Shown one piece after another: positions 2,830 through 9,149 of a stretch of 40,708 nt of DNA. The stretch is from positions 1 through 40,708 of IMG/VR virus record IMGVR_UViG_3300028706_000015; one strand, written 5' to 3'. How positions within the stretch are numbered: position 1 is the first letter of the stretch; every line of letters begins with the position of its first letter. The stretch is from a virus. The notes beneath the pieces are model-generated. The model was not told where the DNA came from and ran no database searches. It saw only the letters and a program-made list of their open reading frames with translations. Position numbers and translations under genes: made by a program.

Positions 2830-4101
2830 TTAGTATCCACTGATTAAGTCTATGGTTTCAAATTCGTCATGTTCTTCAAAGTTACCTATATAGGCTACCT
2901 TGGCTAACTGGTCTATATAAGCCAGCGAGTCTATTAAGTCATCATGTGTTAAGGGGTCTGGGAACTGGAATAATTCATCACAGAAGCGTGAGTGCCATTC
3001 TTTAGACTTCTTGTTGATGGTTATTAGACCATGCTCAAAGCGTCCTTGAAGTGCCCACATTATCCTATCAGTCTTCTTCTGGTTACCGTGTGTAAGTTCC
3101 TCCACCCTGAAGAAGAAGGACTGACGTTTCATCATGTCCATGAGGGGTGACATTACAGCTTGTTTGGCAATACCTTTCTCTATACCTACAGAGAGTGGTC
3201 TGTAATCCTTTACAGCTTGGAATATCTTACGTGCTGTCTCGTCAAGAGTCCAACGCCCATATATGATATTCTCAACAAACCAGCCATCTTCATTGACATA
3301 AACTACAGCCATAGAGGTGTTGTCTAGTCGGCTTGTGTTTCCTTTCTTCTTAGAAACATCTTGGAAACCAGCGAGGTCAATAGCAATATAATAATCACCA
3401 TCACCAGTAGGTTTTGTGCCCGTCTGTAACCACTCTTCTTTAAACATCTCAGAGCCTTGGTTCTTGAAAGAAGCCATGAACTCTTGTTGGAAGGCGTGGG
3501 TTGACATACTCTTTTTAGCAATGTTGATCTCTTCAGGATCTAAGGTTTCATTGTCGTAGGAGGTGAAATGCCATGCAGAGAACGTAGGGTCATCCTCAGA
3601 TAGCTCTGCATACTTGTATAAGTCATAGAAGTGATTACGTCCCTTGGGTGTACCTATGAAGAGACAGGAACCCTTTTGGTCAGCTAGGGCTGGTCGTAGG
3701 ATCTCCTCAAATACCTCTGGTTTCATATCTGCATATTCGTCTAGACATAGAAACTTAAGGCTAACACCACGCATCGTATCGGGTCTATCAGCACCTTTAA
3801 GTGAGATAGTTGCACCATTGATCAGGGTGATTTGCATGTTGTTGATATGGGAGCTGCGTATTACTGGGTGACCTAATTCTATCAATAGGCCCCACATGAT
3901 GTCTCTGGCCTGCCCTTGGGTAGGTGCAACATAGAATACATGGGAGTTTGGTTTATCAGCTTGAAGGGCATTGACAATTAGAAGCCATGCAGCTAGTCGT
4001 GACTTACCACAACGTCTTCCTGCAGCCACTACCCTGAAGCGTGTAGGGTCTGCCCATACTTTCTTTTGCCAATCCAGAAGTTCAATCTGTAGATCACTCA
4101 T
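2830..4101 (-). CDS. Terminase large subunit, 423 aa
   Basis: The motor ATPase and nuclease that packages DNA into the head. The Walker A motif is GRRCGKS (residues 28-34). The Walker B motif with its catalytic acid is FLCLDEYAD (D121, E122). The C-terminal RNase H-like nuclease begins at YYIAIDLAG (about residues 235-243), with the later acidic motif THDDLIDSLAYI near residue 390. The length is short for the family but all motifs are present. The start overlaps the stop of the small terminase gene (ATGA type), so translation is coupled. It acts with the portal encoded just downstream. Confidence 0.95.
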   Translation of the reverse strand: MSDLQIELLDWQKKVWADPTRFRVVAAGRRCGKSRLAAWLLIVNALQADKPNSHVFYVAPTQGQARDIMWGLLIELGHPVIRSSHINNMQITLINGATISLKGADRPDTMRGVSLKFLCLDEYADMKPEVFEEILRPALADQKGSCLFIGTPKGRNHFYDLYKYAELSEDDPTFSAWHFTSYDNETLDPEEINIAKKSMSTHAFQQEFMASFKNQGSEMFKEEWLQTGTKPTGDGDYYIAIDLAGFQDVSKKKGNTSRLDNTSMAVVYVNEDGWFVENIIYGRWTLDETARKIFQAVKDYRPLSVGIEKGIAKQAVMSPLMDMMKRQSFFFRVEELTHGNQKKTDRIMWALQGRFEHGLITINKKSKEWHSRFCDELFQFPDPLTHDDLIDSLAYIDQLAKVAYIGNFEEHDEFETIDLISGY

Positions 4102-4520
4102 ACGACAGTGTACTCCGCATCACTTATGTCTTCATTGGAGACCTCTGTCTGACCTACACCAGTGATATTAATCTGTATAGCTGACTTAGCACTACCTTTG
4201 GTGATATCCTTCTCAAAGGCTGCTACAGGGGCTACACGGTCCATGACAAGTTTCCATGCTGATGCTTGGTTCTTATGATCATCGTTCAAGGCAGCATTAA
4301 AGATAGCCTCAAGTACTTTGGCTGACTTAGGGGACGCAAGCATCCTAGCTTTGTACTCGTTGATGATAGCAGCATCACCTTTAGGACGACCAATAATACC
4401 CTTAGGCTTCTTAAGAGCCGCCTTAGGTGGCCTACCTGTACGCTTCTTAGGTACTGTTCTACGGTCAACCCTGCCTGACTTGGTAAGCTTAGGTTCTTTA
4501 GGTTCTTCTTGTTCTGACAT
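4098..4520 (-). CDS. Terminase small subunit-like protein with AT-hook motifs, 140 aa
   Basis: First gene of the - strand late arm, directly before the large terminase and overlapping it by 4 bases. The N-terminal third is strongly basic and holds two AT-hook-like motifs, GRPPK (about residue 29) and GRPKG (about residue 45), which bind the minor groove of AT-rich DNA. A helical middle (EYKARMLASPKSAKVLEAIF) and an acidic C-terminus (NEDISDAEYTVV) follow. The small subunit normally recognises the packaging site and regulates the large subunit. The call is by position and DNA-binding character; there is no strong motif for the family. The mRNA would start near 4757, giving a leader of about 237 bases with a hairpin. 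Confidence 0.75.
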   Translation of the reverse strand: MSEQEEPKEPKLTKSGRVDRRTVPKKRTGRPPKAALKKPKGIIGRPKGDAAIINEYKARMLASPKSAKVLEAIFNAALNDDHKNQASAWKLVMDRVAPVAAFEKDITKGSAKSAIQINITGVGQTEVSNEDISDAEYTVV

Positions 4521-4647
4521 ATCTATGCAATTGCCTCTGTGTTGAGATTGCTACGGGGGGGTGGGGTTACTTAAGACTGACAATCTCTGTTAAGAGACAT
4601 AGGTGTCGCCTTAAGTATACTTAAGTGTCTTTATGTTTATTCTTTAA

Positions 4648-4691
4648 TTATAACTAAAAGTAACTACTAAAGTGTCTAAAGTAGTTACTTT
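4648..4691. repeat. Copy 1 of a 30-base repeat (4648-4677) overlapping a 12-bp hairpin
   Basis: Bases 4648-4677 are identical to 9046-9075, the leader of the SSB operon. In this copy the repeat also forms the left arm of a perfect hairpin: AAAGTAACTACT (4657-4668) pairs with AGTAGTTACTTT (4680-4691) around an 11-base loop. It lies in the expected 5' leader of the terminase transcript. There is no U-run, so it is not a typical terminator. A protein-binding operator or an RNA leader element is possible. Confidence 0.8.
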
Positions 4692-4881: not shown

Positions 4882-4939
4882 CCCATGTATATCATAGGGT
4901 TATCTTATGTAACCTACAGTAATCTTTTGTTACTTACTA

Positions 4940-5008
4940 AAGCAGAATCACTCTTTTGTAAACTTAGGTTTTCTTCAGAAGCAGAATCACTCTTTTGTAA
5001 ACTTAGGT
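4940..5008. repeat. 30-base direct repeat, two copies, period 39
   Basis: Bases 4940-4969 recur exactly at 4979-5008, separated by 9 bases; the unit begins AAGCAGAATCACTC and ends AACTTAGGT. It lies immediately left of the DnaA-box array. It could be an iteron-like or operator pair; no protein is identified. Confidence 0.8.
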
Positions 5009-5056
5009 GCCTACCACAGTTATCCCAAGAATACTCCACGGCCCCTCCCCATTAAG

Positions 5057-5414
5057 TTATCCACAGGCACACGGAAGTGTCCACAGGTTATCCACAAGTC
5101 CTCAAGGCCCTGTGGATAACTCAAGTCCTTAAGTTATCCACAGGTTATCCACAGGCTACCGAAGTGTCCACAGGTTATCCACAAGTCCTTAGGTAGCCTG
5201 TGGATAACTTATCATGTGTCAAACTATTGACACCTAAGTCCTACTGTCAAACTATTGACACCTAAGGACTTGAGCATACTCGAGACACTTAAGCAAGCGT
5301 GACTACTCAAGGCTCATTTGTTTCATAAGTTGACAAGTGTAAGCCTAGGTGGGTGCCCTAGGACACACCAGAACCTGTGGATAACCTGTACATAAGTCAC
5401 ATAAGTTATCCACA
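5057..5414. promoter_or_regulatory. Array of nine perfect DnaA boxes (TTATCCACA), candidate origin of replication
   Basis: Perfect 9-mers lie at 5057, 5088, 5134, 5145, 5175 and 5406 on the + strand and as TGTGGATAA at 5111, 5199 and 5376 (leftmost base given). About 0.3 copies would be expected by chance in the whole window on both strands. Several share the wider context AGTTATCCACAGG. A 29-base unit is directly repeated at 5074-5102 and 5161-5189 (period 87), and a 16-base inverted pair occurs at 5145-5160 and 5192-5207. TTATCCACA is the strongest DnaA site of enteric oriC. The array could be an origin, a DnaA-titrating decoy, or a DnaA-responsive switch between the two arms. AT-rich DNA that could unwind flanks it on both sides. 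Confidence 0.85.
5216..5260. repeat. Two copies of an inverted repeat TGTCAA-ACTA-TTGACA
   Basis: The perfect palindromes lie at 5216-5233 (7-bp arms, with an extra G/C pair) and 5245-5260 (6-bp arms), inside a 22-base direct repeat (5217-5238 and 5245-5266) of 28-bp period. They sit inside the DnaA-box array. The arms contain TTGACA, but no -10 box lies at a workable distance in either direction, so a pair of operators for a dimeric regulator or initiator is more likely than promoters. Confidence 0.7.
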
Positions 5415-5507
5415 GGCTCCTTAAGCTGTCTAGAAGCTCGTCTAACGTATGCCAGTGTAAAACCTAGGCCATCATATGCCCAAAGTATTTACGTTGATTC
5501 TGTGATA

Positions 5508-5525
5508 TTGGCACGACTATTGCAT
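5508..5525 (+). promoter_or_regulatory. Consensus sigma-54 (RpoN) type promoter
   Basis: TTGGCACGACTATTGCAT matches the full -24/-12 consensus YTGGCACG-N4-TTGCW. The invariant GG (5510-5511) and GC (5522-5523) have exactly 10 bases between them. Predicted start near 5535, about 230 bases before the first early gene. Sigma-54 promoters need an enhancer-binding activator, none of which is encoded here, so a host activator would be needed. Function is inferred from the match only. Confidence 0.6.
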
Positions 5526-5663
5526 ACTCATGTATCCTTCTATCTATTATGTGCGCATACGCGAGTATCATGTTGTCTTGGTTGTTGTCAAGTATTATTT
5601 ATCCGAGCCCAAGGTAAAATCAATATCGAATATGTATATAACTTAGTGATCTAAAGACAACGC

Positions 5664-5691
5664 TTGACACTTCTGTAGTATCATTTATACT
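5664..5691 (+). promoter_or_regulatory. Sigma-70 type early promoter
   Basis: A perfect -35 TTGACA (5664-5669), a 16-base spacer and a -10 of TATACT (5686-5691). Predicted start near 5698, in front of the gene at 5765. The 12-base context AACGCTTGACAC (5659-5670) recurs exactly at the second + strand promoter (8975-8986). Confidence 0.8.
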
Positions 5692-5728
5692 TAACCCAAC
5701 AACAACGCAAACACAGCCCATAGGGCCT

Positions 5729-5747
5729 AATGCGAATCATTATCATT
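5729..5747. promoter_or_regulatory. Fur-box-like palindrome 2
   Basis: AATGCGAATCATTATCATT matches 12 of 14 bases of the 7-1-7 Fur model, with a perfect right half as in site 1. It lies about 30-50 bases downstream of the predicted early start and 17 bases before the first early start codon, where a bound repressor could block transcription. Fur binding is inference. Confidence 0.4.
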
Positions 5748-5764
5748 TAACGGAGCAAGACATT

Positions 5765-5971
5765 ATGACATATTCACAAGTAAAAGCAGCATGGTTTAAC
5801 GAGTCTAGCGACCTAGTTATGGCGACACAGGCACAGATTAGCAAGCTTGAGGCCGAGTTTGAGCGCACAGGCAACGAACATGGTGCTGACTGGTTACAAT
5901 CTCGCTATGATGATTTCAAAGAGGAAATGGCTTATGACATGTCAGAATTACTAGCCGAGTTTGCCTTATAA
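5765..5971 (+). CDS. Unknown small early protein, 68 aa
   Basis: First gene of the + strand arm, with a CGGAG ribosome site nine bases before the ATG. It is acidic and helical (KLEAEFERTGNEHGADWLQS, then EEMAYDMSELLAEFAL), with no cysteine pairs, signal or membrane segment. I do not recognise a family. Its place directly behind the strongest candidate early promoter fits an early host-takeover or anti-defence role, which is only positional inference. Confidence 0.7.
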   Translation: MTYSQVKAAWFNESSDLVMATQAQISKLEAEFERTGNEHGADWLQSRYDDFKEEMAYDMSELLAEFAL

Positions 5972-6385: not shown

Positions 6386-6456
6386 CTGGCGGTAGTTGTT
6401 TTACTCAATGGCCCATTACTAGGCCATTCGTTAAACCAACCATAATGGAGTACACC

Positions 6457-7194
6457 ATGCAAACATTAAAGAAAGCACCTGCAACGCTAGGCTATACACT
6501 ATACCAAGGCCCCTCAGTACTCGACGGCGCACCTATCGCGGCCATCTTGACGCTAAAGACCAGTAACCGCAAAACGGGCAACATGGCGCAAGTATGGATC
6601 ATTCGCACCGATGATAATCCAGTAGCCATAAGCCAAGCTAAACTAGATGGTAGTATTTGTGGATCATGCCCTCACAAGCAATCGGTAGGCGGCGCGTGTT
6701 ATGTTAATATTGGTCAAGCCCCACTAGCAGTATACAAGGCTTTTAAGCGTGGTAGATACTCAAATGATCTAAGTGGTCTAGCGGATAAGCTGGCAGGTCG
6801 TATGCTTCGCCTTGGCGCTTATGGTGATCCAGCGGCTGTACCTTATGAGGTCTTAGCTTCAATAGCGGCCATGGCTAAAGGCCACACAGGCTACACGCAC
6901 CAAGTAACGCACAAGGCTTTTGATAATCGTTACCTAGGCCTCTGTATGGTATCAGCAGATACACCAAAGCAAGCATTAAAGTATCAAAAGCTAGGCGCTC
7001 ATACGTTTCGTGTGGCCTTAGAAGGTGATACACTGGCAGAAGATGAGCTAGAATGCTTAGCAGACGCACAAGGCCTTCAATGCGCTGATTGTGGCTTGTG
7101 TGATGGCACTAAGCGAAACATAGCTATTACTGTACATGGTTCACGCTCTAAACGTTTTAAGTCTAATCTAATTAGTCTAAAAGAAGTAGCATAA
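6457..7194 (+). CDS. Conserved phage protein with cysteine motifs, 245 aa (DUF7227-like)
   Basis: The start at 6457 is chosen over an in-frame ATG 12 bases earlier because the leader GGAGTACACCATGCA matches that of the gene at 6018. A cysteine cluster, ICGSCPHKQSVGGACYVNI at about residues 69-87, and a second, LQCADCGLCDG near residue 210, suggest a metal-binding or redox fold. The pattern of C-x-x-C-P-H followed by CYVN and a downstream RGRYS resembles a widespread phage family of unknown function, which I believe is DUF7227. The stop overlaps the next start (TAATG). Role unknown. Confidence 0.75.
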   Translation: MQTLKKAPATLGYTLYQGPSVLDGAPIAAILTLKTSNRKTGNMAQVWIIRTDDNPVAISQAKLDGSICGSCPHKQSVGGACYVNIGQAPLAVYKAFKRGRYSNDLSGLADKLAGRMLRLGAYGDPAAVPYEVLASIAAMAKGHTGYTHQVTHKAFDNRYLGLCMVSADTPKQALKYQKLGAHTFRVALEGDTLAEDELECLADAQGLQCADCGLCDGTKRNIAITVHGSRSKRFKSNLISLKEVA

Positions 7195-9020: not shown

Positions 9021-9076
9021 AAGACACTTTTAGTATATTCTTAGTTTATAACTAAAAGTAACTACTAAAGTGTCTT
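9021..9076 (+). repeat. Leader hairpin containing copy 2 of the 30-base repeat (9046-9075)
   Basis: AAGACACTTTTAGTA (9021-9035) pairs with TACTAAAGTGTCTT (9063-9076) with one bulged base, and an inner TTAGTT/AACTAA hairpin lies between them. The 30-base unit at 9046-9075 is identical to 4648-4677. The element begins a few bases after the predicted transcription start, so it is either an operator or a structured 5' end of the mRNA. Confidence 0.7.
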
Positions 9077-9149
9077 AAGTACAACTAAGGGCCATAAGGG
9101 CCTTTAGAACTAAAACCCACTATAGCCACTTAAGGCTAAGGATAATTTT

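Follow-up and report, generated by a model that had tools for sequence, protein, structure and literature searches.

The window, by which we mean the whole 40.7-kb virus record that was analyzed, carries terminase, portal and other virion genes on its minus strand, at the left end and again across the right half. Plus-strand genes between 5.8 and 19.8 kb specify an SSB-like protein, a T7-type primase-helicase, DNA polymerase, exonuclease, endonuclease, ThyX and ribonucleotide reductase. A 1.2-kb divergent intergenic region, bounded by the putative small-terminase gene and the first early ORF, holds the control features collected in Table 1. The nine DnaA boxes start at 5057 (+), 5088 (+), 5111 (−), 5134 (+), 5145 (+), 5175 (+), 5199 (−), 5376 (−) and 5406 (+), and the array is probably either an origin that depends on host DnaA or a DnaA-regulated promoter or region. 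Such an array is unusual in a phage with a T7-type primase-helicase. We also observed a 54-bp element that occurs twice in the window (4630-4683 and 9029-9081, 89% identical), upstream of the terminase genes and of the SSB-like gene; both copies are kept in the relatives L002 and L003.

Table 1. Coordinates of the control features and neighboring genes in the window
Feature	Coordinates	Strand	Remarks
Portal / head-tail adaptor protein	800-2827	−	
Terminase large subunit	2830-4101	−	Used for the tree
140-aa ORF, putative small terminase	4098-4520	−	Assigned by position beside the terminase; no family match
DnaA-box array, nine exact TTATCCACA	5057-5414		Exact boxes; similar ones in relatives
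FleQ-like palindrome GTCAAACTATTGAC, copy 1	5218-5231		11/12 to the FleQ box
FleQ-like palindrome GTCAAACTATTGAC, copy 2	5246-5259		28 bp beyond copy 1
Putative sigma-54 (RpoN) promoter core TTGGCACG-ACTA-TTGCA	5508-5524	+	Exact unique match; scored with the Salmonella PSSM; conserved
Exchangeable downstream cassette, −12 element to first early ORF	5527-5764	+	Defined by comparison with L002
Sigma-70-like promoter TTGACA-N16-TATACT	5664-5691	+	11/12 matches
First early ORF, 68 aa	5765-5971	+	No family match
Conserved early gene phrog_2554	6445-7194	+	Anchor for finding relatives

The plus-strand sequence TTGGCACGACTATTGCA in this region matches the sigma-54 −24/−12 consensus exactly, and with the next base it forms the 18-mer TTGGCACGACTATTGCAT (5508-5525). 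As sigma-54-dependent promoters demand, the invariant GG (5510-5511) and GC (5522-5523) are 10 bp apart; from the GG and the TTGC at 5520-5523 a transcription start is predicted near 5535, with the start codon of the first early ORF 230 bp downstream. A pattern search for YTGGCACGN4TTGCW found this single exact match in the whole record and no match to the reversed pattern, and by our own arithmetic about 0.005 matches are expected by chance on both strands of 40.7 kb. When scored with a PSSM derived from 21 Salmonella sigma-54 promoters (list from PMC3844500), the site reached 22.3 bits, as compared with 15.1-23.2 bits for the Salmonella promoters themselves, 10.9 bits for the second-best place in the window and 19.9 bits for the best score anywhere in 60 simulated windows. 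The preliminary description had held that the site fits the consensus with exact GG/GC spacing, that the match is too good for chance and that it faces the early genes. The first two points were borne out by these searches and the third by the gene map, in which the minus-strand genes terS, terL and portal are on the left of the site and the plus-strand replication genes on its right. By sequence criteria, this is a real sigma-54-type site within the phage control region, pointing at the early genes.

Distribution and geometry of the sites among relatives

Conservation in related genomes had been proposed as a check on the site, and it was found. The exact 18-mer had nine matches in 2.9 million viral contigs, six of which are relatives of the window phage; where the neighbors could be read, the site stood beside a putative small-terminase gene or upstream of early genes. 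Further relatives were gathered by three protein searches, with phrog_2554 as one anchor. From each we took, as control region, the DNA that lies upstream of the small-terminase homologue, to a maximum of 1.5 kb; once redundancy had been removed, 84 regions comprising 123 kb were left. The motif TGGCAY-N5-TTGC occurred 80 times in these, spread over 29 of the 84 regions, with 63 sites oriented towards the early genes and 17 away from them. All other spacings from N1 to N11 pooled gave 2 sites in the same regions, and the reversed motif gave none. A tighter form of the motif was found at 78 sites in the 123 kb of control DNA, as compared with 3 in the remaining 520 kb, and records that are longer or nearly complete likewise showed the sites grouped in one place. 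The flanks, which had not been selected, fit the extended consensus mrNrY...R...W with p values of 3e-3 to 7e-9 per position when one site per region was counted; the window site itself misses the outermost m. Cores with one mismatch were at background level, no commoner than with the wrong spacing. We know of no protein other than the sigma-54 holoenzyme that would impose such properties on a site, and judged from the sequences, conservation that is specific to N5 and confined to control regions, together with the fit of the flanks, is what this holoenzyme would impose. Since the motif is missing from 55 of the 84 control regions, a sigma-54 site is not essential to the clade. The statement that phages rarely use RpoN promoters nevertheless has to be revised, as such sites are frequent in this clade and apparently in other phages too.

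Nine of the 29 positive regions contain one site, nine contain two, five three, three four, one eight and two nine; the largest arrays pack up to nine sites into about 220 bp. Plus and minus sites alternate in three relatives (L139, L158 and L237), with −12 elements 4-5 bp apart, and one overlapping opposite pair is present in each of L174, L180 and L184. Because of these overlaps and of spacings below the polymerase footprint, all sites could not be occupied simultaneously; the opposite pairs could be bidirectional promoters that admit one polymerase at a time. Tandem sites on the same strand, in loci from within and outside the clade, are almost never less than 24 bp apart, and their spacings peak near 26, 36, 46 and 56 bp. 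These peaks hint at helical phasing, which was not significant when one spacing per region was used (p = 0.19). DnaA boxes are present in the control regions of 33 of the 84 relatives (121 on the plus and 35 on the minus strand). Arrays of sigma-54 sites and arrays of DnaA boxes tend to exclude each other, but this is no more than a trend (p = 0.09).

Exchange of the control region and candidate activator sites

On both flanks of a swapped segment, the window and its sibling L002 agree at about 99% of positions. Identity breaks off at 5526, past the −12 element, and returns exactly at 5765, the first early ATG. In place of 5527-5764, L002 has a segment that brings in three NtrC boxes and raises its number of sigma-54 sites by two, to three; a search of this cassette found no sigma-70 match like TTGACA-N16-TATACT. 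The window's own segment is partly common to L003, L004 and L091, which come from other samples. In L003 the DNA upstream of the site differs from that of the window while the sigma-54 core is retained. We also observed that the palindrome GTGACTAT-N10-ATAGTCAC occurs twice in L003 (5008-5033 and 5057-5082), ahead of the conserved sigma-54 site and in the place that is taken in the window by DnaA and FleQ-like sites; this pair is possibly a set of sites for another activator. When mapped onto a tree built from 71 large terminases, the presence of sigma-54 sites needs 18 changes, at least 14 of which are forced by well-supported branches; shuffled labels need about the same number (19.5-19.7). 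The relatives L222 and L219 have identical large terminases, yet the former has three sigma-54 sites and the latter none and seven DnaA boxes. Such a scattered presence is what would be expected of an exchangeable cassette. Taken together with the L222/L219 pair and the L002 swap, it indicates that the control region behaves as an exchangeable module. Any single contig could be a chimeric assembly, but every type of cassette was seen in several samples. The window and L002 constitute a natural experiment, in which the same phage can be compared with NtrC boxes and without them.

The NtrC box is TGCACCAnnnTGGTGCA, i.e. TGCACCA-N3-TGGTGCA (PMC8743547). Several relatives carry two to four palindromes of this type beside sigma-54 sites, among them the three boxes of L002 (GCACTACATTGGTGC, GCACTATATTGGTGC and GCACTATACTGGTGC); at least two boxes lie near a sigma-54 promoter in L002, L194, L043, L056 and others, roughly 30-180 bp upstream of the sigma-54 sites. 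In a set that had not been selected for NtrC boxes, two or more palindromes per region were found at the N7 spacing of NtrC and never at N1-N6 or N8-N13. When six related cassettes were compared, three of which had been found by a scan requiring one box and one promoter, the invariant columns amounted to 29/30 in the NtrC arms, 6/15 in the spacers and 68/275 in the rest. A blind scan for an NtrC box with a sigma-54 site returned 50 stretches, and 29 of the 49 that were read belong to the clade. The control scan with the box spacing lengthened by one base to N8 returned 10, one of which is a distant terminase relative. The nitrogen signal suggested in the preliminary description is supported for close relatives, which have NtrC boxes beside their sigma-54 sites, and not for the window: GCAC-N7-GTGC is absent from the whole window, and a relaxed form is absent from 4900-5770. 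Two other relatives, L057 and L059, contain three NtrC-type palindromes upstream of their early genes (about 2451-2517 and 4356-4422) and no intact sigma-54 core; TGGCATACGACTAAAG, downstream of these palindromes, may be a decayed sigma-54 site.

The window contains two palindromes, the sole copies of GTCAAACTATTGAC, that resemble the FleQ box GTCAAT-NN-ATTGAC (PMC10723142). They lie 275-305 bp upstream of the predicted start and are candidate upstream activator sites for the window promoter. A similar palindrome is present in L181, which has no sigma-54 sites, and for this reason the pair remains a candidate only. No consensus IHF site was found in the window.

Profile searches found no T7-type RNA polymerase (PF00940) in the window or the relatives searched, with NC_048161 as a positive control matched at 2e-106, and the sigma-54 activator domain (PF00158) was found in none of nine records. 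Without either protein from the phage, sigma-54 and its activator would both have to come from the host. The host search yielded four metagenome-assembled bins (two near relatives), placed in Sphingobacteriales and Verrucomicrobiales; these placements were not trusted, and neither order was accepted as host. Cultured phages have only distant replication and portal genes in common with the window, their large terminases are at most about 43% identical over part of the length, and no similarity to the control-region DNA was found in them.

Interpretation of the window site and its alternatives

Transcription dependent on sigma-54 requires an AAA+ activator and ATP and is lost without rpoN. The most probable reading, at about 0.77, is that the 5508 site is a genuine sigma-54 promoter and that host RpoN polymerase and a host activator drive the early genes from an exchangeable module. 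We infer that the host possesses rpoN. Its RpoN-RNA polymerase would bind the site, a host AAA+ enhancer-binding protein would open the complex, and the early genes would be transcribed rightward from about 5535, the phage encoding neither polymerase nor activator. The control region would be swapped as a module, of which clade members hold versions with one to nine sigma-54 sites, several with NtrC boxes, and early expression would be coupled to whatever host activator the current cassette recruits. In L002 and others this would be NtrC, responding to nitrogen limitation; in the window the two FleQ-like palindromes are the candidate sites. Several features count against this reading: 55 of the 84 control regions do without the motif, sites packed below a polymerase footprint or in overlapping opposite pairs could not all be filled together, the window has a single site and lacks an NtrC or consensus IHF site, and a sigma-70-like promoter lies 140 bp downstream.

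That sigma-70-like sequence may be a parallel early promoter alongside the sigma-54 site. In a stronger version, which we regard as unlikely although it is the most serious competitor, it is the main early promoter and the sigma-54 site a secondary, conditional input. Its 11/12 match and its position between the sigma-54 site and the first ORF favor this version, as does the fact that 55 of 84 relatives manage without sigma-54 sites. On the other side, L002, which is near-identical elsewhere, has no such match in its cassette, with its three sigma-54 sites and three NtrC boxes, and the best sigma-70 scores were not clearly different in regions that have sigma-54 sites and regions that lack them.

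Closed complexes of sigma-54 polymerase are stable even when no activator is present, and arrays of them might act as decoys or roadblocks that sequester holoenzyme or part early from late transcription. This stability and the density of the largest arrays, with their overlapping opposite pairs, would suit such a role. Against it, 63 of the 80 sites face the early genes, NtrC boxes adjoin the sites, and one or two sites are all that is present in 18 of the 29 positive regions, the window having one; we consider a decoy function improbable.

The motif adjoins the putative small-terminase gene and the DnaA-box array, sometimes in the form of inverted repeats, and might instead be read by another protein, such as the small terminase at a pac site or a replication initiator, its likeness to sigma-54 promoters being superficial. 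We give this very little credence: the flanks independently fit the sigma-54 consensus, phages with identical terminases differ in the motif, and NtrC boxes co-occur with it. What speaks against the terminase or pac-site form in particular, which was rejected, is the scatter of the motif over the terminase tree and its presence in contigs where no relative of the window's proteins could be detected. Finally, although one short motif was picked by eye from 40 kb, a chance match was ruled out by the spacing and reversed-motif controls, by a PSSM score that nothing else in the window approaches and no simulated window reaches, and by conservation, with the exact 18-mer in six relatives and enrichment at the N5 spacing in the clade.

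Sigma-54 sites beyond the clade and known systems

A blind scan for tandem sites returned at least 120 stretches, as compared with 3 when the spacing was increased by one. Among the matches listed, 116 tandem loci were read; 51 belong to the clade, and most of the others have no detectable relative of the window proteins. Four large phages (L298, L307, L324 and L355, in records G020, G021, G022 and G026; 94-223 kb) have 10-17 sigma-54-type sites each and no detectable relation to the window phage. Their sites are mostly grouped in one or a few kb-scale regions and fall mostly outside long ORFs in L307, L324 and L355 and mostly inside predicted ORFs in L298. The activator domain gave a weak match in one of the large records searched, and tracing of the unrelated large phages to isolates through an epimerase gene found no link. 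These sequence patterns point to a wider use of sigma-54 by phages. A tentative extension, to which we would give slightly less than an even chance, is that environmental phages in general use the sigma-54 status of the host as a switch for infection, several groups that are unrelated to one another doing so through exchangeable cassettes with activator-specific enhancer sites. If so, entry into early transcription would hinge on the nutrient or motility state of the host and could be re-wired by one recombination, the sigma-54 sites being arranged singly, in tandem arrays or as bidirectional pairs that overlap.

For the early genes of a phage one expects strong sigma-70 promoters, active in every cell that grows; sigma-54 sites are silent without a signal-activated host ATPase. 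An early region fronted by sigma-54 would make infection conditional on host physiology, and our data suggest that an uncultured marine phage family ties infection to the physiological state of its host. Sigma-54 promoters and the use of host nutrient regulators by phages are already known, the latter from NtcA and Pho boxes before genes of cyanophages (Sullivan et al. 2010, PMC3037559). In the open-access literature, to which our search was directed, we found no account of an exchangeable cassette for early control in phages that is made up of sigma-54 arrays and NtrC enhancers.

Like the cyanophage NtcA and Pho boxes, the sites described here place the targets of host nutrient-stress regulators ahead of the phage's own genes. 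NtcA differs in being a CRP-type activator, used by cyanomyoviruses, whereas sigma-54 and AAA+ activators would operate here, in a clade that is podovirus-like and has replication genes of the T7 type. The phage shock response (PspF/sigma-54) also ties sigma-54 and host stress to phage infection, but it is a host operon, while the present sites are phage-borne. Among cultured groups, the T7-like Autographiviridae have related DNA polymerase, primase-helicase and exonuclease genes, and differ from the window and the relatives searched in the T7-type RNA polymerase, which was found in neither of these. Bacterial sigma-54 promoters, such as those of Salmonella and of E. coli glnA, gltI and pspA, have the same −24/−12 core, 10-bp GG-GC spacing and flank preferences. 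Compared with these, the phage sites are multiplied up to nine times, partly arranged in overlapping opposite pairs, and swapped as cassettes.
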